Position numbers and translations under genes: made by a program. The notes beneath the pieces were generated by a model, which worked only from the letters and a program-made list of their open reading frames with translations, had not been told where the DNA came from and searched no databases. This document shows, piece after piece, positions 16,992-32,504 of a stretch of 64,000 nt of DNA (positions are counted from its first letter, which is position 1; each line of letters begins with the position of its first letter). The DNA is from Undibacterium sp. CCC3.4 (GTDB taxonomy: Bacteria > Pseudomonadota > Gammaproteobacteria > Burkholderiales > Burkholderiaceae_D): positions 3,720,001 to 3,784,000 of the forward strand of contig NZ_CP133779.1 in NCBI RefSeq assembly GCF_034347425.1. The letters run 5' to 3'.

Positions 16992-17069
<78 letters not shown>

Positions 17070-17076
17070 TAAAATC

Positions 17077-17107
17077 AAAGGCTTACAGAATTGCTGTAAG
17101 CCTTTTT
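17077..17107 (+). terminator. Terminator behind tRNA-fMet, supplied by the island
   Basis: AAAGGCTTACAG (17077-17088), loop AATTG, CTGTAAGCCTTT and a T run. It lies just inside the island end; a different terminator follows the att copy at the other end (32113-32150), probably the original one. Confidence 0.88.
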
Positions 17108-17125
17108 GCATTTAAAACGATTTAT

Positions 17126-17146
17126 TGCTGCAATTTTGCTGCACTT
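17126..17146. promoter_or_regulatory. Candidate integrase arm-type site, left
   Basis: A 21-bp stretch made of two TTGCTGCA/TTTGCTGCA-like words. It matches 31944-31964 at the other island end with one difference and in the same orientation. Its position, 56 bp inside the att core, fits a binding site for the integrase's N-terminal domain. Confidence 0.5.
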
Positions 17147-17202
17147 CCGTTTGAAATGCCGGTGTCTATACCCTGTTCCTCAACCTCAATTGGAGCAGAA
17201 GT

Positions 17203-18198
17203 ATGGCAACGATCAATAAACGCGGTCCGTATCAATATCAAGCCATTGTCCGGTGCAAAGGCTATCCTACCCAAACACGCACTTTAGAAACCATCAAAGC
17301 AGCCAACGACTGGGCCAGAGATGTCGAGGCAAAAATGCGACGTGGTGAGTTTAGCGACCGTTCAACCGCAGAAAGTACGACTCTCGGCGATGCACTAGAA
17401 CGCTATCGCTTGGAAGTAACGCCCGCTAAGCGCGGTCATGTCAAAGAAAATTACCGTCTTTTGCAGTTGATGCGACACCCTCTGGCTTTACGTCCACTCG
17501 CCCGCCTACAAAATGTCGACTTTTCCACTTACCGTGACCAGCGACTAAAAGAAGTCGCTCCGAAGACAGTACAACTAGAACTTTCCGTATTCTCTGCTGT
17601 ACTCAATACAGCCCGTCGTGACTGGTCAATTTCGGTCGCCAATACCATCACCGATATTCGCAAACCAAAACTCCCCAGAGGCCGCTCCCGGCGTCTGGTT
17701 GGCGATGAGGAGAAGCGCCTGTTTGATACTGCTCGTAAGAGGGAATCATCTGACCTAAGTTTATTAATCGTACTTGCTATCGAAACTGGTATGCGTTGCG
17801 GAGAAATGGTGTCCTTAACTTGGGATCAAATCGACCTAGCTCACCATTTTATTCATTTGGATATGACAAAGAACGGGACTGCTCGGGATGTTCCTTTGTC
17901 GGTTGCTGCAGAATCTGCTCTGCGTAGTGCCCAGCAACATCCACATGGCCGATTGACGGGATTCCAGGCAACGGATGGCGTTACTGCGGCATTTAGTCGA
18001 CTTTGCCGACATGCTGACATAACCAATTTACGTTTTCATGACCTACGCCATGAAGCAGCGTCCAGATGGGCAAAAGTATTACCCGCAGCAACATTGGCAA
18101 AAATCTTTGGCTGGAAAACCTTGCAAATGGCGATGCGCTATTACAACCCTACTGCGGCTGAGTTAGTAGCAGCTATCCGTCAAAAGACAATACATTAG
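17203..18198 (+). CDS. Site-specific tyrosine recombinase (island integrase)
   Basis: A 331-residue phage-type integrase. The catalytic set is visible in the C-terminal half: Arg in IETGMRCGEMVSL (near 197), Lys in DMTKNGTARDVPL, His-x-x-Arg in LRFHDLRHEAASR (near 283), a second ring position in FGWKTLQMAMRYYNP, where the last Tyr pair holds the nucleophile. The N-terminal 60 residues form a small arm-binding domain and the next 100 a core-binding domain. It is transcribed away from the tRNA. IS copy 1 sits 22 bp after its stop. Confidence 0.93.
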   Translation: MATINKRGPYQYQAIVRCKGYPTQTRTLETIKAANDWARDVEAKMRRGEFSDRSTAESTTLGDALERYRLEVTPAKRGHVKENYRLLQLMRHPLALRPLARLQNVDFSTYRDQRLKEVAPKTVQLELSVFSAVLNTARRDWSISVANTITDIRKPKLPRGRSRRLVGDEEKRLFDTARKRESSDLSLLIVLAIETGMRCGEMVSLTWDQIDLAHHFIHLDMTKNGTARDVPLSVAAESALRSAQQHPHGRLTGFQATDGVTAAFSRLCRHADITNLRFHDLRHEAASRWAKVLPAATLAKIFGWKTLQMAMRYYNPTAAELVAAIRQKTIH

Positions 18199-18312
18199 CT
18201 TTCTTCTTTTTAGGATAAGTAAAGTGGCCCCCTAAGTCCAGACAATTATCCAAAGAGTTTAAGATAGTGCCTGTTTCTGCCACAGCTGCGCGGCGCTGCC
18301 CCGTTATTCGCA

Positions 18313-19224
18313 CTACATCACTACCGTGCTTTTCTTTTCTAGCTTTTTTGAATCAGGCAGTTCAGTACCAAATTTGTTTACGATCTTGGCACCGCCGCCC
18401 ACGCCTGAGCCATACACGGTTTCCGGCGTTTGATAACCCAATGATTGATGTTTACGCTCAGCGTTGTAGAACATAAAATAGTTCGCCAAGCCGATCACCA
18501 ATTCCGGCATACTTTCATGCTTTTTCAAATACACTTCTTCATATTTCACACTGCGCCATAAGCGCTCAACAAAAATATTATCCAGCGCCCGACCGCGACC
18601 GTCCATACTGATTTTGATGCCGTTTCTAAGCAGCAGCCCAGTAAAGGCCTGGCTGGTAAACTGCGCACCCTGATCGGTATTAAAAATCTCCGGCGTTCCA
18701 TACCATTTTATGGCTTCTTCCAAGCAGTCCACGCAAAACCCCGCATCCATCGTGTTCGACAACCGCCAGGACAGCACCTTCCGGCTGTACCAGTCAACGA
18801 TCGCCACCAGATACACAAAACCCCGCGGCAGCCTGATGAATGTGATGTCTGTACTCCAGACCATATTTGGTCGAGTGACGTCGATACCTCTCAGTAAGTA
18901 CGGGTAAATCTTGTTCTGCGGATGCGCTTTACTGGTGTTGGGGCCTGGGGCCATACCTGCCAATCCCAGTTGCTGCATCAGCCTCTGTACGCGCTTTCGG
19001 TTCACTGTATGGCCACAGTCTCGCAAGTAATGCGTCATGCGTCGCGTGCCGTAAAATGGATGTCTGGTGTATTCCTCGTCAAGCAATTGCAACAGCAAAC
19101 TATCAAACGGATTGATCTCTTCCTGCAAGCGCTTTTTCTTGTCGTACACGACCGAGCGCGTGACTGAAACGAGACGGCATTGTGTGGCGATTGAAAGGGC
19201 AGAGAGCGGCTCTACCCACTGCAA
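18313..19224 (-). CDS. IS3-family transposase OrfB, copy 1
   Basis: A 303-residue integrase-core protein. The DDE triad lies in VWSTDITFI, EIFNTDQGAQFTS and NIFVERLWRSVKYEEVY, with the Arg/Lys seven residues after Glu as usual in IS3 elements. An HTH_21-like part (YGTRRMTHYLRDCG) precedes it. It is read in the -1 frame relative to OrfA, so the active transposase should be made by programmed frameshifting at the A8 run near the end of orfA. Confidence 0.93.
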   Translation of the reverse strand: MQWVEPLSALSIATQCRLVSVTRSVVYDKKKRLQEEINPFDSLLLQLLDEEYTRHPFYGTRRMTHYLRDCGHTVNRKRVQRLMQQLGLAGMAPGPNTSKAHPQNKIYPYLLRGIDVTRPNMVWSTDITFIRLPRGFVYLVAIVDWYSRKVLSWRLSNTMDAGFCVDCLEEAIKWYGTPEIFNTDQGAQFTSQAFTGLLLRNGIKISMDGRGRALDNIFVERLWRSVKYEEVYLKKHESMPELVIGLANYFMFYNAERKHQSLGYQTPETVYGSGVGGGAKIVNKFGTELPDSKKLEKKSTVVM

Positions 19225-19232
19225 TCGTTCCG

Positions 19233-19526
19233 TTACAGGCTGATCCCTGACTTTTTTTTAAGCCAATCGAGTTCCATATTCAGTTGCCCAATTTTGGCAT
19301 AGAGACGGTCTGGGTCGTTCTGTGTGCTGGCCGGTTTCGGACCGCGTTTACCTTCAAACAGACTGCCTGCATTTTCCAGTAATTCTTTCTTCCACTGGCT
19401 GACCTGCGTCGGATGCACGCCGAACTCTTGGGCGATCTGATTGATCGTCTTTTCGCCTTTGATCGCCTCAACTGCCACCTTGGCTTTTTGTGCGCCGCTA
19501 AATATTTTTCTCTTATTTTCACTCAT
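19233..19526 (-). CDS. IS3-family transposase OrfA, copy 1
   Basis: A 97-residue helix-turn-helix protein (KAKVAVEAIKGEKTINQIAQ, then EFGVHPTQVSQWKKEL) with a C-terminal helix that carries the frameshift site (the eight A before GTCAGG). It binds IS ends in the family. Confidence 0.92.
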   Translation of the reverse strand: MSENKRKIFSGAQKAKVAVEAIKGEKTINQIAQEFGVHPTQVSQWKKELLENAGSLFEGKRGPKPASTQNDPDRLYAKIGQLNMELDWLKKKSGISL

Positions 19527-19638
19527 GGTCTGCCTCGTCTCTTTTCGACAGACACTAGTTTAAACTGTTGTCCGGATATGTGGATCCACTATAAAGTACC
19601 GAAGAGAGATTCAAACTTTTCTCATTGAGAAAACAAAA

Positions 19639-19662
19639 CCAAGCCAATGAATATTGGCTTGG
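19639..19662 (-). terminator. Terminator of the peptide-export module
   Basis: CCAAGCCAAT and ATTGGCTTGG form a perfect 10-bp stem with a 4-nt loop. On the minus strand it is followed by TTTTGTTTTC. It lies 14 bp behind the stop of the ABC exporter gene. Confidence 0.85.
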
Positions 19663-19675
19663 TTAGTTGAAATAA

Positions 19676-21829
19676 TCAGGCAACCAACATCTGTAGTTCT
19701 GCCAGCGACTCAAATTGATCAGGCTTAAGTTCAGCGCGGTCGATTGACGTAGCACGTATTTCTACCGCTTTCCCGTTCTGTAATGACACCACGCGCTCCG
19801 CACTGGCAATTGTCTCTGGTCGATGTGCAACCATAATGCGAGTCAAGTTCAGCGTACCCAATGCCTGATTGACCTTTTGCTCATTCTGCACATCCAGATG
19901 GCTCGTGGCTTCATCTAATGCCAGAATCTTGGGTTGTTTGTACAAGGCACGCGCTAGCAAGACTCGCTGCTTTTGCCCTCCTGACAAACTACTACCCATG
20001 TCCCCAACCAAGGTCTGATAACCCATCGGCATGGCCGCAATATCCTCATGAATTGCCGCCTGTCTAGCACAGTGCTCGACCTGTTCTTGCTTGGTATGTG
20101 CATCAAAAAAACTGATGTTGTCCTGAATCGAGCCGGCCATCAATACATCATCTTGCATCACAGTACCAATTAGCTTGCGATAGGCATTTATACCTAATTG
20201 CTTAGTCGGAATATTATCAATCAAGACTTCACCCTCAGTGGGTTTAAGCAAACCTAGAATGATTTTGCATAAAGTCGTTTTGCCACAACCGCTAGGGCCA
20301 ACCAGAGCAATGCTTTGTCCTGCAGGAATGGTCAGATTAATCCCGTCTAACACCCAAGGCTCCCCCTCGGCATAACGAAATTTCAGGTTTTTAAGTGTAA
20401 TCGTTGGCTGTATGCGAGACATATCGGTTTCTTGTACGGTATCGATTTCAGCTTCTTCCAAGACGATATCGGCTAAGCGCTCGCTATGCAGTCCTAGCAT
20501 TTTTAGGTTGACTACCAAGTCAATGACGTTAAAGAAACGACCTGAGAAGGTGCTGGCGTAACTAGAAAAAGCCATTAGCATCCCAACCGTCAAGACGTTC
20601 TGCATGACCTGTCCAGCGCCGATATAAAACAAAGCCAGACTTTGAATACCAAATAAGGTGGTATTAGAAATCTTAAACAAGATCGACATCTTCTGCGTCT
20701 TGATATCGCGGTTTTGTACATCCATTTTAAGATTAAGCCAGCGGGCACGACGCTCTTCTTCCCGTCCAAATAATTTCAGCGGCGAGATCGCACGGATAGT
20801 TTCTAAAAAATGGCTACTCTCTTTGGAGGACAAGACCAAACGTTCTTGCGAAGCCTCGCGAAATGGTTGATAAAACACCCAGCGTAATACGGCATACACC
20901 AAGACAGTGACAATTACCAAGGCAGATAACTTCACGCTATATAACAACATCATGCCGAGTGCCAGCAAGGCCATCAGACCGTCTAAGGCACTCTCCACAA
21001 ACAAACTCGTCAACGTACTCTGGATCGCCCCAATACTGCCAAAGCGAGAGACCACGTCACCCAGATGACGCTTCTCAAAAAAAGAGACCGGTAAATGCGT
21101 CAGATGTGCAAATACGCGAGAACTCCATTGAAAACTGATATCCATACTCCAGCGCATCAAGAACCAACTACGCGCCAGACTGATCGCGGTTTGAGTTACC
21201 ATCAATAAAGCAAAGCCGATGACCAGCACCGTCAGTAACTCGCGGTCGCCACTGACAATGACTTCATCCACCACAAATTGATTAAACAACGGGGAGGTAA
21301 TCGCAAAGATTTCTAACGCCAACGCTAGTACCATGACTTGCACAATGGCGCGACGCAGGCCAACGATGTGTCCGGTTAAATCTCGGATAGCAATCTTTTT
21401 ACGCTCGTCTTTGGGCTTAAAGCTCGCACTTGGAGACAATTCACAAGCAACACCAGTAAAGTGTGCCGACGCCTCTTGCAAAGCAACACGACGCTCACCT
21501 ACTGCGGGGTCAAGCAAAATCAAAGTCACTTTGCCTTGCCAATTTTTAGTAATCTTTTTTAAGACCACAAAGTGATTTAAGTTCCAATGCAAAATACATG
21601 GCAAAGCTAACTGATCTAACTCTTCCAATTCCAAGCGCAATGGTCGTGCGGACAATTGCATTGCCGACGCATGGCGCATTAATTGAGCTAACGTCGCTCC
21701 TTTAAGACTGATCGAGAATTGACGACGTAAATCCGCGAGATCAGTGTGGTAGCCGTAATGGCTTGCGACCATGGCTAAGCAAGCTAAACCGCATTCGCTC
21801 GATTCTGTTTGGAGGAGAGATTTCATCAA
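19676..21829 (-). CDS. Peptidase-containing ABC exporter (C39, CvaB/bacteriocin type)
   Basis: A 717-residue inner-membrane exporter that should cut double-glycine leaders and pump the mature peptide out with the HlyD-type adaptor encoded upstream. The N-terminal C39 peptidase domain (1-135) has Gln7, Cys13 (SSECGLACL), His86 (LNHFVVL) and Asp107 (LLDPAVGERR), a complete catalytic set. Then come about six membrane helices (160-430) and an ATPase with Walker A GPSGCGKTT, signature LSGGQKQRVLLARAL, Walker B ILALDEATSHLD and the switch His in VAHRPET. It is the last gene of the minus-strand module, 204 bp behind the nucleotidyltransferase gene. Expected outer-membrane partner TolC is not in the window. 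Confidence 0.93.
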   Translation of the reverse strand: MMKSLLQTESSECGLACLAMVASHYGYHTDLADLRRQFSISLKGATLAQLMRHASAMQLSARPLRLELEELDQLALPCILHWNLNHFVVLKKITKNWQGKVTLILLDPAVGERRVALQEASAHFTGVACELSPSASFKPKDERKKIAIRDLTGHIVGLRRAIVQVMVLALALEIFAITSPLFNQFVVDEVIVSGDRELLTVLVIGFALLMVTQTAISLARSWFLMRWSMDISFQWSSRVFAHLTHLPVSFFEKRHLGDVVSRFGSIGAIQSTLTSLFVESALDGLMALLALGMMLLYSVKLSALVIVTVLVYAVLRWVFYQPFREASQERLVLSSKESSHFLETIRAISPLKLFGREEERRARWLNLKMDVQNRDIKTQKMSILFKISNTTLFGIQSLALFYIGAGQVMQNVLTVGMLMAFSSYASTFSGRFFNVIDLVVNLKMLGLHSERLADIVLEEAEIDTVQETDMSRIQPTITLKNLKFRYAEGEPWVLDGINLTIPAGQSIALVGPSGCGKTTLCKIILGLLKPTEGEVLIDNIPTKQLGINAYRKLIGTVMQDDVLMAGSIQDNISFFDAHTKQEQVEHCARQAAIHEDIAAMPMGYQTLVGDMGSSLSGGQKQRVLLARALYKQPKILALDEATSHLDVQNEQKVNQALGTLNLTRIMVAHRPETIASAERVVSLQNGKAVEIRATSIDRAELKPDQFESLAELQMLVA

Positions 21830-22033
21830 GTAAGATAATTAAATGAGCAATTCATTTTTTCGACACTTTCAAGCAATGTCAAGTGAGCTACGATTTAGTT
21901 CTTAATTTATATAACTAAATACTAGCGAATAAAAAAAATAGGCTTTACGATCTAATCTCAACGTAAATTACATCAATCCTTTTCCATTGCAGAATAAAGT
22001 GATAATTTAAAAAATATCTACAAATCTAATAGG

Positions 22034-22789
22034 TCATCGGATTACTTTGTTTGGATTAACAAGCGGAAGCCTCCCACTTTCTCTCATTTGTTTTTTAAAA
22101 CCATCTTTCAATTCCCCACCTAGTTCGGCAAGAACAGCTTTAGCTAACACGACTAGATCTGCTGTGTCAGCATTCGAAATAGCTTTTTCAAGAGAATTAT
22201 TTAGTTTTTCATCCATTAGTGGATTGAATTTTTTAAGTGCTCGTGCCGTATGTTTGCGAACGTATCCTCCTTTCCCCCTCTTTAACAAAATTATTTCGAC
22301 TAACGTCTTATATAGCTCCGCGGCAAGGAAATTAATTTCTCTTTTGTCAATACAAAATTCTAGATCGATAATCAATGACGTTAAAAAATACCTAACTGAA
22401 TCTAAATCAGGAACTTCCCATTGCGCCGAATTCTCGATATACCTAGCGCATGATTTCAAATGTTCTGATTCAAATGTTGCTTGTGGCAAAACAGTACTAC
22501 CACAAATAATTTCTATTGTTGAATATTGCCCAATTTTAGGACAAATCTGAATATTGTAGTTTAATGTTTCAGCATCAAATACAAAGACATCAAATATTTT
22601 CCCACCCTCTGAAAACGACTCATGGAATGGTGTCGTTTTTTTTGTAAAAACTATAATTAGATCTATATCTGAGTCCTTTCGAGCAACGCCATTTATCTGT
22701 GATCCAAAAAAATAAATGAACGAGAAATCTGAATACCGATTTGAAATTACGTTGACAATAAACTCAGTTAATAAATTTTTATAATTCAT
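22034..22789 (-). CDS. Nucleotidyltransferase-fold protein in the peptide module
   Basis: A 251-residue protein. Residues 25-50 carry the MNT/pol-beta motif: YFFGSQINGVARKDSDIDLI, i.e. Gly-Ser, then a spaced Asp-x-Asp pair that would bind metal and NTP. The C-terminal 130 residues are all-helical, like the helical partner domains of KNTase or HEPN proteins, but with no RxxxxH seen clearly. The start MNYKNLL was chosen since the stop of the preceding gene lies one base upstream, so the two are coupled. Possible roles are peptide modification, self-protection or antibiotic-type adenylylation; none can be chosen from sequence. Very A+T-rich. Confidence 0.7.
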   Translation of the reverse strand: MNYKNLLTEFIVNVISNRYSDFSFIYFFGSQINGVARKDSDIDLIIVFTKKTTPFHESFSEGGKIFDVFVFDAETLNYNIQICPKIGQYSTIEIICGSTVLPQATFESEHLKSCARYIENSAQWEVPDLDSVRYFLTSLIIDLEFCIDKREINFLAAELYKTLVEIILLKRGKGGYVRKHTARALKKFNPLMDEKLNNSLEKAISNADTADLVVLAKAVLAELGGELKDGFKKQMRESGRLPLVNPNKVIR

Positions 22790-22790
22790 A

Positions 22791-23939
22791 TTATTTCTCT
22801 GGAAGATTTTTAATCCCCCTATTTTTTGAAAAATAGGTATTGTTCCAATGGTCGAAATGGAGATGCTTAACACCAAGCAGATCCAGTTCTGAAATTAATT
22901 CTGGAGAATAAATTTCAGCAATTACCTGAGAATTTACATAGTAAATACCACCTTCACTTAGTGTAAATTTATAAGCGATACTCAAGGTGTTTTCAGCAGA
23001 CTCCCACAACCTATTTATGTGTGCGAGGAATAGATGGCTATTTTGTATGTTTTGATATGTAGAGGGATAGTGAGCTCTTGCAGCTTTGAAGTAACACAAG
23101 ATATACAGCATAAAATCGCTCATTCCGCTTATATTTCCGCTATATGAGTCTAGTCCACTAGTTTTGAATTTTTGATAAACGCTAGTAGAAGTTAAGTTCG
23201 TCTCTAGGTTTGCTGCAATTGTATAGGCATTGAATTCATCAACTCCCGTTGATATATCGTTACCCGTGAATTTTTTGCTTTTAATAATGTAAGTATTAAA
23301 GTTTGAATTTGACGGTAAAAGTACTTTAAATTTGTCTGGTATCACTTCCTCGACGATGGAAAAGTTAGCACTGTCACCTGGATGCCGCTCGGTTATCCTC
23401 CCATAACCGTTAAATAAGTAGGTAGAATTCCCGCTATTGCACTTCCTCATTAAGGTGTGCATGTCATGTACCGTTTCATGTATCGCAGTAGTTAACGTGA
23501 TCAGAGAAATTCCTTTGTTAATACGAATCCACCACATCACACTGTGCGGCATAAGTCGGAATAACTGATAAGCGTCTCTGTTGTTCGAATCTAAAAGTAA
23601 CTGATTCACCACAGCAGTATCTGACTCTTTTAAATTAATACTTTTATCCCATTGTGGCTCACCAAACGCGTATGACTGATCGGATTTGTTGTCTCCAGAA
23701 TCAACACCTTGATTTTCAATCAAAGCCCAGCAATTCAAGGAATTATAAAAAGGCCGCTCACCCGCTTCAGCAATAGAAATATTTTCAATTTCAGTCTTTT
23801 TAAGCATTATTTTAAATTGATCCATATTTTTCACTAATCCGGTATCCGAGCTATTGGAGTTTTTTTCCTTACCGTTTATTTGCGCACCACAAGGAAATGC
23901 ACTAAAAAAAAACATAAGTATTAATGGTATTTTAAGCAT
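22791..23939 (-). CDS. Exported HEXXH protein, putative zinc metalloprotease
   Basis: A 382-residue protein with an N-terminal signal sequence (MLKIPLILMFFFSAFPCGA). Residues 154-158 read HETVH in the helix-like context ITLTTAIHETVHDMHTLM, the HEXXH zinc site of gluzincins and metzincins; His161 follows. A possible third ligand is Glu in GVDEFNAYTIAANLE, about 85 residues later. I do not recognise the family. Position between the precursor gene and the nucleotidyltransferase suggests a part in processing the peptide, in resistance or in attack on a target; this is inference. Base composition is A+T-rich like its neighbours. Confidence 0.6.
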   Translation of the reverse strand: MLKIPLILMFFFSAFPCGAQINGKEKNSNSSDTGLVKNMDQFKIMLKKTEIENISIAEAGERPFYNSLNCWALIENQGVDSGDNKSDQSYAFGEPQWDKSINLKESDTAVVNQLLLDSNNRDAYQLFRLMPHSVMWWIRINKGISLITLTTAIHETVHDMHTLMRKCNSGNSTYLFNGYGRITERHPGDSANFSIVEEVIPDKFKVLLPSNSNFNTYIIKSKKFTGNDISTGVDEFNAYTIAANLETNLTSTSVYQKFKTSGLDSYSGNISGMSDFMLYILCYFKAARAHYPSTYQNIQNSHLFLAHINRLWESAENTLSIAYKFTLSEGGIYYVNSQVIAEIYSPELISELDLLGVKHLHFDHWNNTYFSKNRGIKNLPEK

Positions 23940-24093
23940 TTGTTAAATAGATTTTGGAGGTATTGTCAAATAAGGTTTGCTGAAGATAATTGAACTCAGT
24001 AATGTGAAGTAATAAAAAAGGGCATAGAGGTCAATTTCCTTATTTTAATTTATACAAAATAATCCTAACCAAGTCATGACTTTTTGCTTTATG

Positions 24094-24126
24094 GTGGCAT
24101 TCATTATTTTCTTTAACAAATGCCAC
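24094..24126 (-). promoter_or_regulatory. Hairpin between precursor gene and downstream module genes
   Basis: GTGGCATT and AATGCCAC form a perfect 8-bp stem around a 17-nt loop, about 68 bp behind the precursor stop. It could stabilise the precursor mRNA or lower read-through, making more precursor than exporter. The 254-bp spacer (23940-24193) also holds a 19-codon frame starting MNATIKQKVMTW and a 30-codon frame with an AAGGA site that overlaps the next start; neither is convincing as a gene. Confidence 0.4.
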
Positions 24127-24193
24127 TACTTTCTATTTCACAAATCGCAGAAATATAAATCTAATTTCGTACCTCGTCTTGCTGAGACATTGA

Positions 24194-24520
24194 TCATTTT
24201 TGCATAGTTACTGTTGTGCAAATCTGCGCAGAAACAACCGGCGTTGGAGTGCCAGCGCATGTGATCACAGATATTGTGTTGTCATTATTTGTACAAGTTT
24301 GAATCGACTGTCCTACGGCACCTACAGTTATACAAACACTGGTTACAACAGTTGTTCCACTCGATTCCGAATTCTGTCCCGAGTTCGACCCCGAAACTGA
24401 TACAGATTGAATTGGCTCTTCGCCATAGTAGGCATTGTTAATATCCAATCCATATTGAGCAGCTAGGCCAATATCCCCACCACCAACCGCAAACAATTCG
24501 TCATTTGTAATTAAACGCAT
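24194..24520 (-). CDS. Double-glycine leader precursor peptide (microcin V-like secretion)
   Basis: A 108-residue precursor. Its first 15 residues, MRLITNDELFAVGGG, fit the C39 leader pattern LSxxELxxIxGG position by position and have the same length as the microcin V leader (MRTLTLNELDSVSGG). Cutting after Gly15 gives a 93-residue product starting DIGLAAQYG. The product is Ser/Thr/Val-rich with four cysteines (63, 76, 88, 101) spaced almost evenly, C-x12-C-x11-C-x12-C, which suggests two disulfides in a beta-rich fold. It lies between the adaptor and exporter genes. It could be a bacteriocin or another secreted small protein. No separate immunity gene is recognised. Confidence 0.82.
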   Translation of the reverse strand: MRLITNDELFAVGGGDIGLAAQYGLDINNAYYGEEPIQSVSVSGSNSGQNSESSGTTVVTSVCITVGAVGQSIQTCTNNDNTISVITCAGTPTPVVSAQICTTVTMQK

Positions 24521-24579
24521 TTTGTGTTTCCCTATACATGGTTAAGTTGAACTATGCCTCATGACATAGTTTTGCTGCT

Positions 24580-24608
24580 CCGTTCTTGGTCTCGACTACC
24601 TTGAACGG
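24580..24608 (-). promoter_or_regulatory. Structured spacer upstream of the precursor gene
   Basis: CCGTTC pairs with GAACGG, and within it GGT with ACC, about 60 bp upstream of the precursor start. A second hairpin, AACTATG/CATAGTT, lies nearer the start (24551-24572). The 180-bp spacer may hold a terminator for the adaptor gene or a leader for the precursor mRNA. Confidence 0.4.
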
Positions 24609-24700
24609 TTTTTCGGACTGGGTCTGGAAGAAAATATCCTTTCAGATCCAGTATTCGAATCTTGTTGGGTTACAAATTTCTATAGTTGTAGTAATTTTTC

Positions 24701-26065
24701 TTAGCCAGCATTTGTCACTGCCAATACTGGCTCTGCAATCCACTCCCAAATCTTGCGTTTGTCCTGCAATATGTCTGCCTCTAGGGTCATACCTGACTTT
24801 AGATTTTGCACTTGTCCGTAGGCATCTATTGTTTGTTTTTCTAGTCTGACTTTGATTCTGTACAAGGCTTCATTACTGTTGAAGCCTTGAATATTCTGCT
24901 GGGCGTTACTCAAAATCGTACTGGCTAAATTAGGGGGTAATTCATTTGGTGCGAATGGAGTGTCGCTAATGTCGGTAACGGTGCCTTTTTGCAGTCCAAA
25001 TTTTTGGTAAGGGTAGGCTTGATAGCGGATCAGGACTTGCTGTCCATTGGCGACGAAACCTGCGGTGCGGCTGGGTGCGTATAGATGGACCTCTAGCTGC
25101 GCTGCATCAGTCGTCTTTGTTGTGTCTAGTGTGTCTGTTGTCTTCGCTAACTTGGAGGATGAGGGTATTAATGTTGCCAATACCTGTCCTGCGTTAATGG
25201 TTTGGCCTATTTGACTGGTCAGTGTGGTGATGGTGCCTGCTTGGCTGGCGGTGATCAGATTCGTTTTACGATTGTTATTTTCTGCGATTTCTTGTTGCAG
25301 GCTAGCGACCGCTCTTTGTAGTTGTGCCTGGTCAGTTGCTAAGCTATTAGCCTGAGCATTCAGCTCTGCTTGCATAGCAAGTTGATTAGCCTCTAGCTGC
25401 AACTTATTGCGACGTAGGGTTGACAAATGAGTATCGACATCAATCATGTCTTCTTGTTTTTGCTGGGTCTGAGCCGCCGATACATAGCCATTATTTTGCA
25501 GCGTTTGGAATTTAGTGACACTGTCTTGGGCCAGGCTATGGCGACGTTGGGTGAGGACAATTTCTTGTTCTAGTTGACTGGCTTCGGTCGTAAGGTTATT
25601 CAACCTTTGAACTAAAGCCTGTTTCTTTTCTATCGCTTGGGCTGTGCGCAGTCTTTGTTCCGCTTCCAATGTCTGCCGACGGGTGGCGAGTTGTTGGGCG
25701 ACTAGAGCGGTAATTTCGCCTTTGTCACCTTGACGTTCAGTAGAAAGCTCGAACAGGATTTGGCCTACGCTAACAGTTTGGCCTTCTATAACGTGGCTGT
25801 TGACTAGCAATCCTCCATTGGGCGCGCTGATGCTGATACTACCGCCAATCGGCAGGGTGATGCCTGTGACGCGGGCTTTTTTGGTGATGTTACCCAATGT
25901 GATAAAGGCGATGAGAATCATCGTGACGATCAAAGCAACACCAGCAATCAGCCAAGCCGAAATCGGTTGTGCCAAGCGGATAGCGCCTAGCCATTGTTGA
26001 TTGTGACTTGCTGTCACTTCCGGACGGAACAAAGGCAGTTGACTAGTTTTATTTTGATTAATCAT
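24701..26065 (-). CDS. HlyD-family membrane fusion protein (CvaA-like adaptor)
   Basis: A 454-residue periplasmic adaptor for ABC export. A short cytoplasmic N terminus is followed by one membrane helix (about 33-55, WLIAGVALIVTMILIAFITL), a biotinyl-lipoyl half (GGSISISAPNGGLLVNSHV), a long coiled-coil hairpin rich in Gln and Leu (about 115-265), the second lipoyl half (ITASQAGTITTLTSQIGQT) and a beta-barrel part (VLIRYQAYPYQKFG), the signature of CvaA/MchE-type adaptors. It should bridge the C39 exporter to a TolC pore. It is the first gene of the minus-strand module. Confidence 0.9.
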   Translation of the reverse strand: MINQNKTSQLPLFRPEVTASHNQQWLGAIRLAQPISAWLIAGVALIVTMILIAFITLGNITKKARVTGITLPIGGSISISAPNGGLLVNSHVIEGQTVSVGQILFELSTERQGDKGEITALVAQQLATRRQTLEAEQRLRTAQAIEKKQALVQRLNNLTTEASQLEQEIVLTQRRHSLAQDSVTKFQTLQNNGYVSAAQTQQKQEDMIDVDTHLSTLRRNKLQLEANQLAMQAELNAQANSLATDQAQLQRAVASLQQEIAENNNRKTNLITASQAGTITTLTSQIGQTINAGQVLATLIPSSSKLAKTTDTLDTTKTTDAAQLEVHLYAPSRTAGFVANGQQVLIRYQAYPYQKFGLQKGTVTDISDTPFAPNELPPNLASTILSNAQQNIQGFNSNEALYRIKVRLEKQTIDAYGQVQNLKSGMTLEADILQDKRKIWEWIAEPVLAVTNAG

Positions 26066-26510
26066 TAATCTAAATTCAAATTATTTTGTAAATTATTTTT
26101 CATTAATTTGCATGCATTGACATTTTTATAGCAAATTAATGTTGTTTTATGAAAAATAGATTAGGTGAAAAATTCTAAGATATTCAGATGACAGCTGAAT
26201 CAGTTAGTATGCCTGATAATTATTACTTTTAAAGCAATAGTTGTCTTTTTATGCATGTTATTAAAACATGTAAATATTTCAATATTGTTACATGTTACAA
26301 AGAATTACAATATTGGAAATGTTTTAGCTTTGTTGATATTTTTCTTTTTTTAGTGAGGTACAGACGCATAAAAAATATATCTAGACAGAAATGGATACTC
26401 ATTTGTTAGTCACTTAAACAAGCTTGAAAATCATCCAAATAAGCTATCTCGCAATGATAAGAATATTAATTAGATTACGTTACTTTTACCCGCAGATTTA
26501 ATCACACTTG
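26066..26510. promoter_or_regulatory. A+T-rich upstream region of the peptide module with an inverted repeat
   Basis: 445 bp without a gene. The likely promoter for the adaptor-precursor operon lies here but I cannot place it surely. ACATGTAA (26266-26273) and TTACATGT (26288-26295) form a perfect inverted repeat around a 14-bp spacer, about 200 bp upstream of the adaptor start, a possible operator. Confidence 0.35.
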
Positions 26511-26741
26511 CTAGTTCTGAAACCACTGCTCAAGCGTCTCCTCAGACCAAGCCAAAGACCGCCCAGGATTATCTGGCGGCGACACTTTGAGCGCCGTGTA
26601 AATACTGCCAAACAGTACTTGTACCGATTTATCATCGACATCCTTCCTGTTTTCAGCAGCCTTTAATGCAGACCAAATCATGCATTTAAGTTGATATCGC
26701 TGTTGGTTAATCCCATAAAATCCTGGCCGTTTCTGCTGGTA
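26511..26741 (-). pseudogene. 3' part of an unknown gene split by IS copy 2
   Basis: These 77 codons (with stop) read YQQKRPGFYGINQQRYQLKC at the IS end and finish SEETLEQWFQN. They have no start of their own. With the IS and one 3-bp duplication removed, they continue in frame from the ORF at 28119-28796, giving RWLEY-QQKRPGF. The split confirms that this fragment is the C-terminal quarter of a 302-residue protein. Confidence 0.85.
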
Positions 26742-26808
26742 TATAGTGGATCCACATATCCGGACAACAGTTTAAACTAGTGTCTGTCGAAAAGAGACGA
26801 GGCAGACC

Positions 26809-27102
26809 ATGAGTGAAAATAAGAGAAAAATATTTAGCGGCGCACAAAAAGCCAAGGTGGCAGTTGAGGCGATCAAAGGCGAAAAGACGATCAATCAGAT
26901 CGCCCAAGAGTTCGGGGTGCATCCGACGCAGGTCAGCCAGTGGAAGAAAGAATTACTGGAAAATGCAGGCAGTCTGTTTGAAGGTAAACGCGGTCCGAAA
27001 CCGGCCAGCACACAGAACGACCCAGACCGTCTCTATGCCAAAATTGGGCAACTGAATATGGAACTCGATTGGCTTAAAAAAAAGTCAGGGATCAGCCTGT
27101 AA
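26809..27102 (+). CDS. IS3-family transposase OrfA, copy 2
   Basis: 97 residues, identical in protein sequence to OrfA of copies 1 and 3. The A8 slippery run is at 27076-27083, right before the zero-frame stop. Confidence 0.93.
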   Translation: MSENKRKIFSGAQKAKVAVEAIKGEKTINQIAQEFGVHPTQVSQWKKELLENAGSLFEGKRGPKPASTQNDPDRLYAKIGQLNMELDWLKKKSGISL

Positions 27103-27110
27103 CGGTACGA

Positions 27111-28022
27111 TTGCAGTGGGTAGAGCCGCTCTCTGCCCTTTCAATCGCCACACAATGCCGTCTCGTTTCAGTCACGCGCTCGGTCGTGTACGACAAGAAA
27201 AAGCGCTTGCAGGAAGAGATCAATCCGTTTGATAGTTTGCTGTTGCAATTGCTTGACGAGGAATACACCAGACATCCATTTTACGGCACGCGACGCATGA
27301 CGCATTACTTGCGAGACTGTGGCCATACAGTGAACCGAAAGCGCGTACAGAGGCTGATGCAGCAACTGGGATTGGCAGGTATGGCCCCAGGCCCCAACAC
27401 CAGTAAAGCGCATCCGCAGAACAAGATTTACCCGTACTTACTGAGAGGTATCGACGTCACTCGACCAAATATGGTCTGGAGTACAGACATCACATTCATC
27501 AGGCTGCCGCGGGGTTTTGTGTATCTGGTGGCGATCGTTGACTGGTACAGCCGGAAGGTGCTGTCCTGGCGGTTGTCGAACACGATGGATGCGGGGTTTT
27601 GCGTGGACTGCTTGGAAGAAGCCATAAAATGGTATGGAACGCCGGAGATTTTTAATACCGATCAGGGTGCGCAGTTTACCAGCCAGGCCTTTACTGGGCT
27701 GCTGCTTAGAAACGGCATCAAAATCAGTATGGACGGTCGCGGTCGGGCGCTGGATAATATTTTTGTTGAGCGCTTATGGCGCAGTGTGAAATATGAAGAA
27801 GTGTATTTGAAAAAGCATGAAAGTATGCCGGAATTGGTGATCGGCTTGGCGAACTATTTTATGTTCTACAACGCTGAGCGTAAACATCAATCATTGGGTT
27901 ATCAAACGCCGGAAACCGTGTATGGCTCAGGCGTGGGCGGCGGTGCCAAGATCGTAAACAAATTTGGTACTGAACTGCCTGATTCAAAAAAGCTAGAAAA
28001 GAAAAGCACGGTAGTGATGTAG
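27111..28022 (+). CDS. IS3-family transposase OrfB, copy 2
   Basis: 303 residues, identical to OrfB of copy 1, with the DDE residues in STDIT, NTDQG and VERLW. It lies in the -1 frame to OrfA; the nominal TTG start at 27111 is probably used less than the frameshift product. Confidence 0.93.
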   Translation: MQWVEPLSALSIATQCRLVSVTRSVVYDKKKRLQEEINPFDSLLLQLLDEEYTRHPFYGTRRMTHYLRDCGHTVNRKRVQRLMQQLGLAGMAPGPNTSKAHPQNKIYPYLLRGIDVTRPNMVWSTDITFIRLPRGFVYLVAIVDWYSRKVLSWRLSNTMDAGFCVDCLEEAIKWYGTPEIFNTDQGAQFTSQAFTGLLLRNGIKISMDGRGRALDNIFVERLWRSVKYEEVYLKKHESMPELVIGLANYFMFYNAERKHQSLGYQTPETVYGSGVGGGAKIVNKFGTELPDSKKLEKKSTVVM

Positions 28023-28118
28023 TGCGAATAACGGGGCAGCGCCGCGCAGCTGTGGCAGAAACAGGCACTATCTTAAACTCTTTGAATAATTGTCTGGACT
28101 TAGGGGGCCACTTTAGTA

Positions 28119-28796
28119 CTCCAACCATCTAACGATGGTTGCTGCTGCCTGTGGTGTGAGCTTTTTATAGCTGCTCAGAAAGCGCCCAATCAATTCATTC
28201 GCCAATGCTTTCGCTTCATTAAAGGATTCTTTACTGATGACCCATGTCAAATGTCGACCGCCGCTACTCATTATCTCTTGACCATCCTCATCGACTAACA
28301 CCTCGCCTTTGCGGTTCTTCGCTACATGCTTGCGGTGTTCAAGCTGCGTCAGTTTATAAATTCGGGAGATCTCCCAGCCGTCATGTTCGGTTCGTTTTGC
28401 CGTTTCAAAATAGAGTCGTTGATACGGTTTTCTTGCATCTTTATATTTTGGAAAAACATCCAGTTCACCTTCGCCTTGTGACCAAAGCACATAAAAATTG
28501 ACCTTGCCAAACTCTTGAATTTGCCGTTGATCCAGCGGTTTAACGATGACGAGATGGCCGCAAGAGTGACCTTGTTTGCGCGCATAGTCGCGTTGATGTC
28601 GCATCATACCGATGCCAATTTTGGCATGCATCTCAATTATAAAAGCAGGTAATTTGTCGATGCGTATCCAGCCACTTTGATAGAAATAATGCTTACTTTT
28701 AAGGTAATCGAGTAGTAGACGCATGGCTTGTGTGTGACTGCGCGGTAGCCGGATTTGCGCCAATACTGAGGTATCGTTCTCACTAAATTTAGGCAT
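28119..28796 (-). pseudogene. 5' part of an unknown gene split by IS copy 2
   Basis: 226 codons starting MPKFSENDTSVLAQIRLPRS and running up to the IS, where a TAA from the IS end would stop it. Joined to 26511-26741 it encodes 302 residues. The protein is basic, with many aromatic residues and segments such as LPAFIIEMHAKIGIGMMRHQ and GRHLTWVISKESF; no signal peptide or membrane helix. I do not recognise it. An island replication or DNA-binding function is possible but not shown. The truncated product of about 227 residues may still be made. Confidence 0.8.
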
Positions 28797-29009
28797 AGGA
28801 TGTTCATTTAAAGAGTAATTAGGCGTATAGACATCGTTCTTATCTTTTTCAAGAACTGCTTTTTAGACGTTGATTAAGAACAGTAGTACGGCGCCATAAC
28901 GATAGATTTGCGTTCAGTTCAAATCATCGGAAAGACGCCTATTATAGTGGATCCACATATCCGGACAACAGTTTAAACTAGTGTCTGTCGAAAAGAGACG
29001 AGGCAGACC

Positions 29010-29303
29010 ATGAGTGAAAATAAGAGAAAAATATTTAGCGGCGCACAAAAAGCCAAGGTAGCAGTTGAGGCAATCAAAGGCGAAAAGACGATCAATCAGA
29101 TCGCCCAAGAGTTCGGGGTGCATCCGACGCAGGTTAGCCAGTGGAAGAAAGAATTACTGGAAAATGCAGGCAGTCTGTTTGAAGGTAAGCGCGGTCCGAA
29201 ACCGGCCAGCACACAGAACGACCCAGACCGTCTCTATGCCAAAATTGGGCAACTGAATATGGAACTCGATTGGCTTAAAAAAAAGTCAGGGATCAGCCTG
29301 TAA
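29010..29303 (+). CDS. IS3-family transposase OrfA, copy 3
   Basis: 97 residues, the same protein as in copies 1 and 2, with a few silent base changes and the same A8 run. Confidence 0.93.
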   Translation: MSENKRKIFSGAQKAKVAVEAIKGEKTINQIAQEFGVHPTQVSQWKKELLENAGSLFEGKRGPKPASTQNDPDRLYAKIGQLNMELDWLKKKSGISL

Positions 29304-29311
29304 CGGAACGA

Positions 29312-30223
29312 TTGCAGTGGGTAGAGCCGCTCTCTGCCCTTTCAATCGCCACACAATGCCGTCTCGTTTCAGTCACGCGCTCGGTCGTGTACGACAAGAA
29401 AAAGCGCTTGCAAGAAGAGATCAATCCGTTTGATAGTTTGCTGTTGCAATTGCTTGACGAGGAATACACCAGACATCCATTTTACGGCACGCGACGCATG
29501 ACGCATTACTTGCGAGACTGTGGCCATGCAGTGAACCGCAAGCGCGTACAGAGGCTGATGCAGCAACTGGGATTGGCAGGTATGGCCCCAGGCCCCAACA
29601 CCAGTAAAGCGCATCCGCAGAACAAGATTTACCCGTACTTACTGAGAGGTATCGATGTCACTCGACCAAATATGGTCTGGAGTACAGACATCACATTCAT
29701 CAGGCTGCCGCGGGGTTTTGTGTATCTGGTGGCGATCGTTGACTGGTATAGCCGGAAGGTGCTGTCTTGGCGGTTGTCGAACACGATGGATGCGGGGTTT
29801 TGCGTGGACTGCTTGGAAGAAGCCATAAAATGGTATGGAACGCCGGAGATTTTTAATACCGATCAGGGTGCGCAGTTTACCAGCCAGGCCTTTACTGGGC
29901 TGCTGCTTAGAAACGGCATCAAAATCAGTATGGACGGTCGCGGTCGGGCGTTGGATAATATTTTTGTTGAGCGTCTATGGCGCAGTGTGAAATATGAAGA
30001 AGTGTATTTGAAAAAGCATGAAAGTATGCCGGAGTTGGTGATCGGCTTGGCGAACTATTTTATGTTCTACAACGCTGAACGTAAACATCAATCATTGGGT
30101 TATCAAACGCCGGAAACCGTGTATGGCTCAGGCGTGGGCGGCGGTGCCAAGATCGTAAACAAATTTGGTACTGAACTGCCTGATTCAAAAAAGCTAGAAA
30201 AGAAAAGCACGGTAGTGATGTAG
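29312..30223 (+). CDS. IS3-family transposase OrfB, copy 3
   Basis: 303 residues with the complete DDE triad. It differs from the other copies by a Thr-to-Ala change in DCGHAVNRK. Intact and probably active. Confidence 0.93.
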   Translation: MQWVEPLSALSIATQCRLVSVTRSVVYDKKKRLQEEINPFDSLLLQLLDEEYTRHPFYGTRRMTHYLRDCGHAVNRKRVQRLMQQLGLAGMAPGPNTSKAHPQNKIYPYLLRGIDVTRPNMVWSTDITFIRLPRGFVYLVAIVDWYSRKVLSWRLSNTMDAGFCVDCLEEAIKWYGTPEIFNTDQGAQFTSQAFTGLLLRNGIKISMDGRGRALDNIFVERLWRSVKYEEVYLKKHESMPELVIGLANYFMFYNAERKHQSLGYQTPETVYGSGVGGGAKIVNKFGTELPDSKKLEKKSTVVM

Positions 30224-30324
30224 TGCGAATAACGGGGCAGCGCCGCGCAGCTGTGGCAGAAACAGGCACTATCTTAAACTCTTTGAATAATTGTCTGGAC
30301 TTAGGGGGCCACTTTATATAGCCT

Positions 30325-30352
30325 AGGTGTCCGGAATGTATTCCGGACACCT
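30325..30352. repeat. Perfect 13-bp inverted repeat
   Basis: AGGTGTCCGGAAT and ATTCCGGACACCT are separated by two bases, immediately right of IS copy 3. There is no T run. It may be a protein-binding site or the end of another element; the GGACACC word recalls IS ends seen at 38.6 kb. Confidence 0.7.
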
Positions 30353-30390
30353 CTAATGAATGTCCCAAAAAATTCAAAGAATTTTTATTT

Positions 30391-30414
30391 TTTTGATTTT
30401 GATTTTGATTTTGA
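30391..30414. repeat. TTTTGA hexamer tandem repeat
   Basis: Four exact TTTTGA units in a T-rich stretch, preceded by an AAAAATTC/GAATTTTT hairpin (30368-30386). The tract lies upstream of the structured-RNA region. Confidence 0.8.
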
Positions 30415-30441
30415 TTTTTTGGGTTTTACACTTTTTAGTGA

Positions 30442-31520
30442 AGTCCGATACCTACACAGGTAAGGACTCCAAGAAAATAGTTCCAGACGATGCAGGTCGT
30501 CGGGTGCGCCAACACTCTCACTTCTTACTGCTGTGGGGATGGTCGCGCCAACGACCCCACATCAGTCTCACTTGTCAGGCACTGACCTCTATTCCAGAGT
30601 TCAGTTGCCGGTACCGCTCGGTGCACGTAAAGGTGCTCGCCGAGCGATGATGGGCGGGAGAGCTGCAATTCTCTCGACCCACTCTTTATTGTGAAGTTTG
30701 TTGTGAAATTCGTGCGACCACCAGAAACACCGCCGCTATAAGCCGTGAGGCGAAATGCGGTAGGTTGGCAAACGAAAAATCGAGTAACCAGCCTCGACCT
30801 CCTGAACGATCCAGCGTAAGTTGGACGGGAGTGCTTGACACGAGTGATGTCGGCGGACGAAAGTCGCCGCTGTCTGAAAAAATGCCGTAAGACGCCTGGA
30901 GAGTCGTCCAGGGAAGACAGTCCACCACCGGAAGGTGGGGTAGCAGAGAGCTTATGCGTGTAATAGTCGGAAACTACGCTGAGGGAACTCAGGTAGGGCA
31001 CCGGCTTTCAAGAGGTGCATAAAGTGTGTGATGTAAAAGTCCAGGTAGACGTACAAATAAACAAGGATGAGGTCTTCGGGACATTCTCCCATCCGCGGGC
31101 GCCCAAAAGCGTCGGTAGCTGAAAACTACGTTTGTTTGATTTCGTGCCGCACACGTTATGCGCTGTTCATCGTCGTTTTGTCTAAGTGGGTGACCTGTCG
31201 TGGATACTTATTTTGTTCAGGGTGGAAACCTGCATATAAAAAATAAGGATGCACTATGGTTAAGCGGTGATACCAGTCAATTTAGTTGAGCTTTCCTCTG
31301 CATGGGCATGTGGAGGCGAGTTAGCGAATCTGCTACTGGGAAACACCACCGGATAATATAGCCTTACAAGTGAAATGATGTGCCTGGAAGGTTTGGCGAC
31401 CGACCAGGAGGTGATGTGACATGGGGTGCTTTGGCGAGTACTCCGTGTAATACAAGTAGATGAAGGCTAGATGTTTAGCATGAATATTGATTCACGGGGC
31501 CGACTTCGGTCGGCCCCTCC
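30442..31520 (+). ncRNA. Candidate large ornate structured RNA
   Basis: About 1.08 kb with no credible ORF but dense perfect hairpins. Examples (stem/stem, loop): AGTCC/GGACT with TACCT/AGGTA (30442-30468); GACGA/TCGTC (30486-30501); TGTGGGG/CCCCACA (30532-30561); CGCTCGG/CCGAGCG (about 30615-30646); GAGAG/CTCTC (30658-30675); CCAGC/GTTGG, GTAA (30811-30824); CGGC-GAC/GTC-GCCG, GAAA (30851-30869); CCTGGA/TCCAGG (30895-30912); CCACC/GGTGG, GGAA (30925-30938); CTGAG/CTCAG, GGAA, stacked on CTAC/GTAG (30974-30996); CTTATTTT/AAAATAAG (31207-31247). Two late hairpins show the same loop TTGGCG (31383-31408, 31423-31444). GNRA loops on this strand and the UUCG terminator set the direction. Size and place near a tRNA att site recall GOLLD/ROOL-type RNAs; group II intron or HEARO are alternatives. 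Confidence 0.65.
31496..31520 (+). terminator. UUCG-loop terminator ending the structured RNA
   Basis: GGGGCCGAC and GTCGGCCCC form a perfect 9-bp stem around TTCG, the extra-stable C(UUCG)G tetraloop, followed by TCCTTT. Confidence 0.75.
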
Positions 31521-31574
31521 TTTGGGTGTTGAATTAGCGATACACGAGCGGAAAGTGATAAGTAAGTTAGAAAT

Positions 31575-31850
31575 TCATAGGTTGCGGCGAGCTATAATTT
31601 GGTCGGCCTTGGTTGGACGGCCTCGACGACGTGGACTTGATGCTTGCGATGGTGAAGCTGCTGTTAAAGGTGCCGTTGCTTGCTGCTTCTGGTTCAACCA
31701 GTGTTGCACATCGGCTGGCCGGAAACGGATTAAACGACCGAGTTTGACGACGGGAGGTAAGTCTCCGCCTGTGGCGTGACGGTTATAAATCGTTTGTTCG
31801 GCAATGCCGAGTGCTAAAGCTAAAGTTTTAGGAGAAAGAAGTGCTTCCAT
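31575..31850 (-). CDS. AlpA/excisionase-like DNA-binding protein
   Basis: A 91-residue winged helix-turn-helix protein: LSPKTLALALGIAEQTIYNR is the helix-turn-helix and GDLPPVVKLGRLIRFRPADVQHWL the typical wing and end of the MerR/AlpA (HTH_17) fold. Such proteins act as excisionases or as activators of the integrase in islands. The start MEALLSP at 31850 has GGAA upstream; a GTG nine codons earlier would overlap the inverted repeat at 31867-31888. The C-terminal 30 residues are basic and Ala/Ser-rich. Confidence 0.82.
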   Translation of the reverse strand: MEALLSPKTLALALGIAEQTIYNRHATGGDLPPVVKLGRLIRFRPADVQHWLNQKQQATAPLTAASPSQASSPRRRGRPTKADQIIARRNL

Positions 31851-31866
31851 GGGAATGGTTCCGTTG

Positions 31867-31888
31867 TTAGCAGTCACATGACTGCTAA
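31867..31888. promoter_or_regulatory. Inverted repeat upstream of the AlpA-like gene
   Basis: TTAGCAGTCA and TGACTGCTAA are perfect 10-bp arms around CA, 17 bp upstream of the alpA-like start. The position suits an operator for autoregulation or an excisionase site. Confidence 0.6.
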
Positions 31889-31943
31889 ACGTATAGGCAC
31901 CAGTTACCAGGATTTACTTTGATCTGGCGGGCGGCGGAATTTC

Positions 31944-31964
31944 TGCTGCAAATTTGCTGCACTT
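31944..31964. promoter_or_regulatory. Candidate integrase arm-type site, right
   Basis: Matches 17126-17146 with one difference over 21 bp, in the same direction, 91 bp inside the right att core. Confidence 0.5.
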
Positions 31965-32055
31965 GAGTGGGTAAATTCCGGTATAATGCGGTAAGTCAGG
32001 GTATGGCATGCCATTGATTTTATTGAATATTTTGGTTTTAAGCCCCTCTAGTTTT

Positions 32056-32104
<49 letters not shown>

Positions 32105-32268: not shown

Positions 32269-32504
32269 AGAGCGCTGTCGCGAAAGCCTGATAGGCACTT
32301 TTTTTACCTAAAACACCGCATGCCTCGTCGCTCCCGTATGATTTTAGCGGGAATCCAGAAGTCTGTCGGACTTAGGGAATCGATTACTCCTAAGCCCGAC
32401 AGACCCCTAATGTCGTTTTTAGCACTAAAAACGTCATCATTTCTGGCATTTAAAGCTAACCACGAACGTCGCTGGATTCCTGCCAAAAGCGCGCAGGAAC
32501 GACG
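32269..32504. repeat. MITE-like element, copy B (right end missing)
   Basis: It starts AGAGCGCTGTCGCGAAAGCC and follows copy A (11477-11762) to about ...GCGCAGGAACGACG. The 24-bp tandem array is absent, there is a private insert with GTCTGTCGG (about 32353-32408) that forms a long inverted repeat, and the right terminal repeat is lost. It fills the gap between the island and the SOS cassette. Confidence 0.65.

Follow-up and report, generated by a model that had tools for sequence, protein, structure and literature searches.

A double-glycine peptide cassette of Undibacterium with exchanged cores and a probable HEXXH partner protein

How does a bacterium that appears to secrete a small peptide live with its own product when nothing beside the peptide gene looks like an immunity gene? 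The question is raised by a gene cluster of Undibacterium sp. CCC3.4, found in a stretch of 64,000 nucleotides (contig NZ_CP133779.1, positions 3,720,001 to 3,784,000; hereafter the window) that is part of a single-contig 4.59-Mb genome. The cluster encodes an adaptor, a double-glycine precursor peptide, a protein with a HEXXH motif, a nucleotidyltransferase and an exporter with a C39 peptidase domain. By DNA comparison it is one allele of a cassette in which the core and accessory genes are swapped and the leader, adaptor and exporter are kept, a status overlooked in the original prediction, which was made from the letters of the window. A wider reading is offered tentatively, with somewhat less than even confidence: the genus and its relatives may possess a polymorphic arsenal of peptides, many unrelated cores being served by a single kind of exporter and leader. 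Self-protection would then come from core-specific periplasmic or membrane peptidases, taken afresh each time from seven or more unrelated families (M16, S9, retropepsin-like, TraB, CPBP, ClpP-like and HEXXH), and not from small membrane immunity proteins alone. In the window, the core with four cysteines would be joined to a HEXXH family that is all but unique.

The export module and its precursor

The module and the segment exchanged within it are laid out as follows.

24701..26065, minus strand: HlyD-type membrane-fusion adaptor (Pfam HlyD_3, 1.6e-10)
24194..24520, minus strand: precursor peptide of 108 aa, with leader 24476-24520 and core 24197-24475 containing four Cys (from sequence and relatives)
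22791..23939, minus strand: HEXXH protein of 382 aa, with HETVH at residues 154-158 and an invariant E235 (alignment and AlphaFold2 model)
22034..22789, minus strand: nucleotidyltransferase of the MNT/Pol beta type, 251 aa, GSx10DxD intact (Pfam Polbeta, 5.9e-8)
19676..21829, minus strand: ABC exporter with C39 peptidase, triad C13/H86/D107 (Pfam and sequence reading)
19637..19664, minus strand: terminator-like stem-loop 3' of the exporter, 12-pair stem (pattern match only)
21830..24473, minus strand: exchanged segment, comprising core and accessory genes (DNA comparison with relatives)

All five open reading frames (ORFs) are open and collinear on the minus strand, which confirms the peptide-export module of the original prediction; the HlyD-type adaptor and the complete C39 triad that it described are borne out by the Pfam match and by C13, H86 and D107, the positions being taken from the sequence. 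The exporter carries Peptidase_C39 (1.3e-32), ABC_membrane (2.2e-38) and ABC_tran (5.6e-35) domains and misses the cut-off of TIGR03796, the NHLP family of nitrile hydratase leader export (504 vs 853.3 bits). The gaps between precursor, HEXXH gene, nucleotidyltransferase gene and exporter contain no further minus-strand ORF of more than 20 residues.

The 15-residue leader (MRLITNDELFAVGGG) places V at -4, L at -7, E at -8 and I at -12 relative to a cut after Gly15. Among 510 ORFs of at least 40 aa in the six frames of the window, the precursor alone matches the strict leader pattern, so that by sequence it is the C39-type substrate it was predicted to be. The core of 93 residues has the predicted C-x12-C-x11-C-x12-C spacing, is rich in Ser, Thr and Val and contains 9 Gly. 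The precursor matches no Pfam family at an E-value of 1 and no NCBIfam family, and the same holds for the HEXXH protein.

Two relatives argue that the precursor is real and not a chance ORF. A second species of the genus (genome G014) encodes a precursor 99% identical to that of the window along with a HEXXH protein 100% identical, and a Rhodoferax locus (L102) encodes a similar core. The local score of the two cores is 89, against a best of 79 and a mean of 40 in 5000 shuffles; among 20 other cores, only the Rhodoferax core beats all 300 shuffles against the window core. The Rhodoferax peptide has six cysteines, the last four of which align with the four of the window. Conservation of the precursor beside the transporter, which the original prediction had set as its test, thus holds for the leader in many relatives, and for the core in one other lineage only. 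From family knowledge and co-conservation, export of the precursor by this exporter after a cut at Gly15 is very probable.

The module shares with class II microcins of the MccV type a double-glycine leader, a C39 exporter with its triad and a HlyD-type adaptor encoded together, and its leader of 15 residues ending in GG lies within the class range (15-18 aa, GG or GA). It differs in its 382-residue HEXXH partner, four cysteines and low glycine content. Confirmed class II microcin immunity proteins are 51-216 aa long and mostly reside in the inner membrane (PMC10233263, PMC9746304). No adjacent inner-membrane protein of 51-216 aa was found here, the interval between precursor and exporter holding only the 382-aa and 251-aa genes, and therefore the module is not filed as a class II microcin. 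One 56-residue ORF lies upstream of the adaptor and is, by eye, not hydrophobic.

Exchange of core and accessory genes

The exporter has matches at E 1e-100 in 23 of 60 genomes, and copies of at least 77% identity in 14 of the 36 genomes of the genus within that set, its own included. Within the family, 77 of 245 genomes have a match at E 1e-180; identity steps from 65% to 59%, and a large group lies near 50%. Surroundings were compared for both the close group and this outer group. Thirty loci, the window and L102 counted, have an exporter of at least 57% identity together with an adaptor on the stretch: adaptor and exporter are separated by more than 1 kb in 21 and adjacent in nine (L064, L065, L067-L072 and L076). 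The exporters of L077, L078 and L102, counted in the close group, reach only 57-62% identity. In the outer group, adaptor and exporter are adjacent, overlapping or fused in 19 of 20 loci.

Apart from the nine adjacent pairs, the count of 21 leaves aside L041, L048, L049, L061, L062 and L074 (no full adaptor, a partner by the exporter), L045 (no exporter), L058 (split exporter, no adaptor), L059 (truncated, outer type) and L075 (no adaptor). L042 is nearly the allele of the window, and L079 is the same place as L049. L059 (G000:C1:1055000-1072000) is a second, truncated adaptor and exporter pair in the genome of the window itself.

The DNA comparison with the window module covers 20 of the 38 stretches L041-L058 and L060-L079, one of which has the allele of the window itself. 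Among the remaining 19 are 13 whose similarity crosses the adaptor, enters the leader and breaks off at 24469-24501; the leader ends at 24476, and the break falls between some eight codons ahead of that point and two codons past it. Similarity stops at the adaptor end (24710-24720) in five, and one has no upstream DNA. It returns at the exporter start (21799-21840) in all 18 stretches that include an exporter. At five loci there is a second block, about 115-160 bp of intergenic DNA plus leader, as expected from tandem peptides.

The encoded peptides mirror this pattern. Leaders are alike (type MRLITNEEL..V.GG): 20 of them, compared in 190 pairs, share a mean identity of 0.54 over 13 residues. 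Cores differ. Of 210 core pairs 33 score above their shuffles, and many of these are explained by two short segments behind the leader that, by eye, are common to several cores. As judged from these sequences, a constant trafficking part joined to an exchanged C-terminal part and an exchanged partner follows the pattern of polymorphic toxin systems, in which the partner gene is likewise adjacent (PMC3482391). The cassettes differ from those systems in that the constant part is the 15-residue leader only, the cargo is a small peptide and the partner is peptidase-like.

The HEXXH protein and the partners in sister cassettes

The HEXXH protein retains H154, E155, H158 and E235 in all five aligned family members. 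In the AlphaFold2 model (predicted template modelling score, pTM, 0.78), HExxH lies on helix 146-167 and E235 on helix 229-251. The conserved HExxH and downstream Glu give the pattern of an HExxH...E metallopeptidase, which we take to be of the gluzincin type. By eye, the N-terminus of the window protein is signal-peptide-like and that of member P0006 lipoprotein-like.

The family is very rare. A profile search among 5.77 billion proteins, word-based and of limited sensitivity, returned five clusters, that of the window included. Alignment searches covering 399 genomes from the order and 369 from the class found the gene in its own genome only; these samples miss carriers, since G014 also has it. 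The closest named relative, at about 60% identity, is in an Undibacterium metagenome-assembled genome. A scan of genome contigs gave two loci. At L101 the HEXXH gene stands at the contig start beside insertion sequence (IS) remains; the genomic surroundings of members P0004 and P0006 were looked for and not found.

The Rhodoferax cassette consists only of adaptor, homologous peptide, HEXXH protein and exporter, the adaptor, HEXXH protein and exporter being 47%, 30% and 62% identical to those of the window, and it has no nucleotidyltransferase. Because the pairing is kept there without the nucleotidyltransferase, the four-cysteine core probably has the HEXXH protein as its partner, and the two independent contexts make it quite probable that it is specific to that core.

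Other cores have other partners. A peptidase-like or hydrolase-like protein is present in 20 of the 21 long-interval loci, with varying families; nine loci are above the Pfam cut-off for a peptidase family (TraB counted), and matches in the others are weaker.

L043: S9 and CPBP, above Pfam cut-off
L044, L052, L053, L077: TraB, above Pfam cut-off
L050, L056: aspartyl protease, above Pfam cut-off
L051: M16, above Pfam cut-off
L060: CPBP, above Pfam cut-off
Window, near copy L042, L102: HEXXH, no Pfam family
L047, L054, L055, L057: ClpP-like, weak
L046: CPBP-like, below cut-off
L066, L073: transglutaminase-core with DUF3857, above cut-off
L078: alpha/beta hydrolase, GxSxG motif only, no Pfam match

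In the six loci without a full adaptor on the stretch, the exporter is adjoined by M16 (two) or TraB (four) proteins, all above the cut-off. Active-site motifs are present in the checked M16, aspartyl, S9, transglutaminase and HEXXH proteins and in the above-cut-off CPBP proteins. Partner and core also appear matched, in counts that include related copies (L054a, L054b): M16 accompanies cysteine-free cores of 34-38 residues in 3 of 3 cases, HEXXH accompanies four matched cysteines in 2 of 2, and ClpP-like proteins accompany a C-x5-7-C loop core in 6 of 8 (0 of 21 others), the last being a post hoc comparison.

To see whether peptidases are equally common nearby, 114 ORFs in the flanks of 17 loci were examined. 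Among the 25 commonest of their 134 Pfam families were Rce1-like (4 members) and Peptidase_C26 (2). A phmmer search with the accessory proteins against the same ORFs at E 1e-3 gave four matches, all through CPBP queries: at L050, L053 and L054 the matching ORF follows the exporter and shares its strand, and at L051 it lies upstream of the adaptor.

Two sister arrangements may be mentioned here. L043 (G014:C1:2313000-2330000), a second cassette of G014, encodes an S9 peptidase, a double-glycine peptide and a CPBP protein, and its exporter is interrupted by an apparent IS21-type element (by eye). At L066:9098-9988 and L073:9755-10414, JmjC and 2OG-Fe(II) oxygenase genes lie beside glycine-zipper-like peptides, which are perhaps hydroxylated products.

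The ClpP-like family is the least certain of the partners. Pfam gives 0.0026 and 0.04 in two of ten proteins, and NF045542 of NCBIfam gives 4.6e-8, below its cut-off, in one of two tested. ClpP is the top PDB profile match of the family (E 0.11); profile against profile, the match to ClpP has E 0.0019 and a probability of 14%, with Ser and His columns aligned. The family profile matches in 70 of 323 genomes, that of the window included. Tandem ClpP-like genes, at least two per locus, occur at L141, L142, L144, L145, L146 and L153, where no adjoining double-glycine peptide was found.

The role of the partner and the genomic setting

In the mechanism favoured here, the conserved adaptor and C39 exporter would serve the one conserved leader, and the core and following genes would be exchanged behind it. 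The exporter would remove the leader after Gly15 and send the 93-residue peptide out in one step, its four cysteines probably paired as two disulfides. The HEXXH protein, as the private partner of that core, would act as a zinc-dependent peptidase in the periplasm, sparing the producer and its kin by destroying or trapping cognate peptide that returns from outside the cell. Type I export bypasses the periplasm, so a periplasmic enzyme would meet mainly re-entering peptide.

Several observations speak for self-protection. The HEXXH gene stands beside the core, no other immunity candidate lies between precursor and exporter here or in Rhodoferax, and unrelated peptidase families recur at the same place. 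Class II microcin immunity genes sit beside the core gene (PMC10233263), and PrgY, a member of the TraB family, is thought to degrade the producer's own peptide pheromone (PMC7117660). On these grounds and that of one-step type I export, we give about an even chance that the HEXXH protein provides self-protection by proteolysis or trapping in the periplasm. The suggestion in the original prediction that one of the extra genes protects the producer is accordingly plausible for the HEXXH protein, which stays with the peptide in Rhodoferax, and less so for the nucleotidyltransferase, which is absent there.

A number of points weigh against this reading. The HEXXH protein itself has no Pfam family (E 1), no NCBIfam family and no sequence match in PDB, and its link to the peptide is known from two lineages only. 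L063 has no peptidase-like protein, only small membrane-looking ones, and the CPBP-like partners of L046 and L047, which have no EExxxR, do not reach the Pfam cut-off. The assignment of the ClpP-like proteins is weak; at 20 new ClpP-like regions, leader patterns revealed no double-glycine peptide on the strand of the gene, and since the family is thus also found away from cassettes it is not cassette-specific, which leaves its pairing count post hoc. A small membrane-looking protein (by eye) accompanies the peptidase in the cassettes L044, L051, L056, L061, L066 and L077 at least; as the usual immunity protein is of this small membrane-embedded type, the peptidase may act otherwise in those cassettes. 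The CAAX protease SilX beside a streptococcal bacteriocin acts in signal-peptide processing and not in immunity (PMC9298176). The small membrane-looking proteins and the SilX result make a uniform immunity role doubtful.

The same SilX result lends itself to an alternative in which the HEXXH protein is a maturation protease that makes a second cut in the exported peptide, inactive without it. Metallopeptidases of families M1, M16, M61, M103 and M50 aid leader removal in several peptide pathways (PMC10885120), and SilX acts in processing (PMC9298176). Core-specific partners would also fit core-specific maturation. The leader, however, would already be removed by the C39 domain, the partners look periplasmic or membrane-bound (N-termini by eye) on an export route that bypasses the periplasm, and several unrelated chemistries for a single step would be odd. 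Maturation is the chief rival to self-protection and is considered rather unlikely.

Another possibility is that the peptide is a signal, adhesin or surface factor, not an antibacterial toxin, and that the peptidase turns off or shapes the signal as PrgY does (PMC7117660). In favour of this, the window core is rich in Ser, Thr and Val and has 9 Gly in 93 residues, while class II microcins are reported to contain 12-26% Gly (PMC11494933). Other alleles, for instance L066, L073, L077, L045b and L056, nevertheless have Gly/Ala-rich hydrophobic cores of bacteriocin type, and core and partner are exchanged together in the manner of polymorphic toxins, which makes a non-toxic peptide improbable.

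The nucleotidyltransferase could instead be the immunity or modifying factor, for example by adenylylating the precursor, with the HEXXH protein secondary. Its GSx10DxD motif is intact, its ATG lies one base past the HEXXH stop, and its best NCBIfam match is the MntA antitoxin family NF047752, below cut-off (32.4 vs 60 bits). The gene is missing from the Rhodoferax cassette, and among 147 genomes a close copy occurs only in its own genome (G000) and G014, two others having a relative of 25% identity; such a role is very improbable. Equally remote is a module decaying as mobile cargo without a product, for although two IS copies flank it and the near-identical copy in G014 has a truncated adaptor and an exporter with a stop, all five window genes are open with intact motifs.

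The cassettes have parallels in known systems. TraB/PrgY of enterococcal plasmids is a peptidase-like protein encoded with a peptide system and thought to act on the producer's own peptide (PMC7117660); TraB/PrgY proteins are present in sister cassettes, and the window has an unrelated HEXXH protein instead. The Cdz system of Caulobacter resembles the cassettes in having small glycine-zipper bacteriocins that leave the cell by type I secretion, glycine-zipper-like cores being present in several sister cassettes, and differs in that CdzI, with three predicted transmembrane segments, confers immunity and the N-terminal signal is described as RTX-like (PMC5380434). CPBP/CAAX proteins beside Gram-positive bacteriocin loci are again peptidase-family proteins, with CPBP members in sister cassettes; their roles are mixed, covering immunity and processing (PMC9298176), and the window partner is not a CPBP protein. 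No description of such cassettes was recognised among the best matches of full-text searches in open-access literature, a scope that excludes subscription papers and preprints.

The genes that confer immunity to Gram-negative peptide bacteriocins are difficult to recognise from sequence, and searches for them look for small proteins, most of them in membranes (PMC9746304, PMC10233263). Should the peptidase partners prove to be immunity factors, an entire class escapes searches of this kind, and every cassette supplies a peptide together with its natural counter-enzyme. The leader-core junction, as the exchange point, gives a simple route to more cores, and further work can start from both the four-cysteine peptide and the HEXXH family, which are new.

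The module is probably cargo of a putative integrative island (17021-32104) in tRNA-Met, as the 49-bp repeats at both ends and an integrase suggest.

17021..17069, plus strand: attL-like end, 49-bp repeat in the 3' part of tRNA-Met (exact repeat)
32056..32104, plus strand: attR-like end, exact copy of the 49-bp tRNA-Met repeat
17203..18198, plus strand: phage-type integrase of the 15-kb island (Phage_integrase, 1.2e-24)
18220..19593, minus strand: IS3-like copy downstream of the module, 3-bp target duplication AAG
26742..28115, plus strand: IS3-like copy upstream of the module, 3-bp target duplication GTA
28943-30316: third IS3-like copy

The three IS3-like copies have separate 3-bp target duplications (AAG, GTA and TAT), and the element has 24 near-full-length copies in the genome, 99-100% identical. 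They therefore look like separate insertions into the island. A composite transposon was considered and is unsupported for the same reasons; the IS copies may have moved the module at an earlier time. Inside the island, between IS copies, lies a 227-residue ORF (28113-28796) with no Pfam family at a credible score. A 94-bp repeat, 91% identical, occurs at 11615-11708 and 32411-32504, both outside the island and one of them 300 bp past its end.

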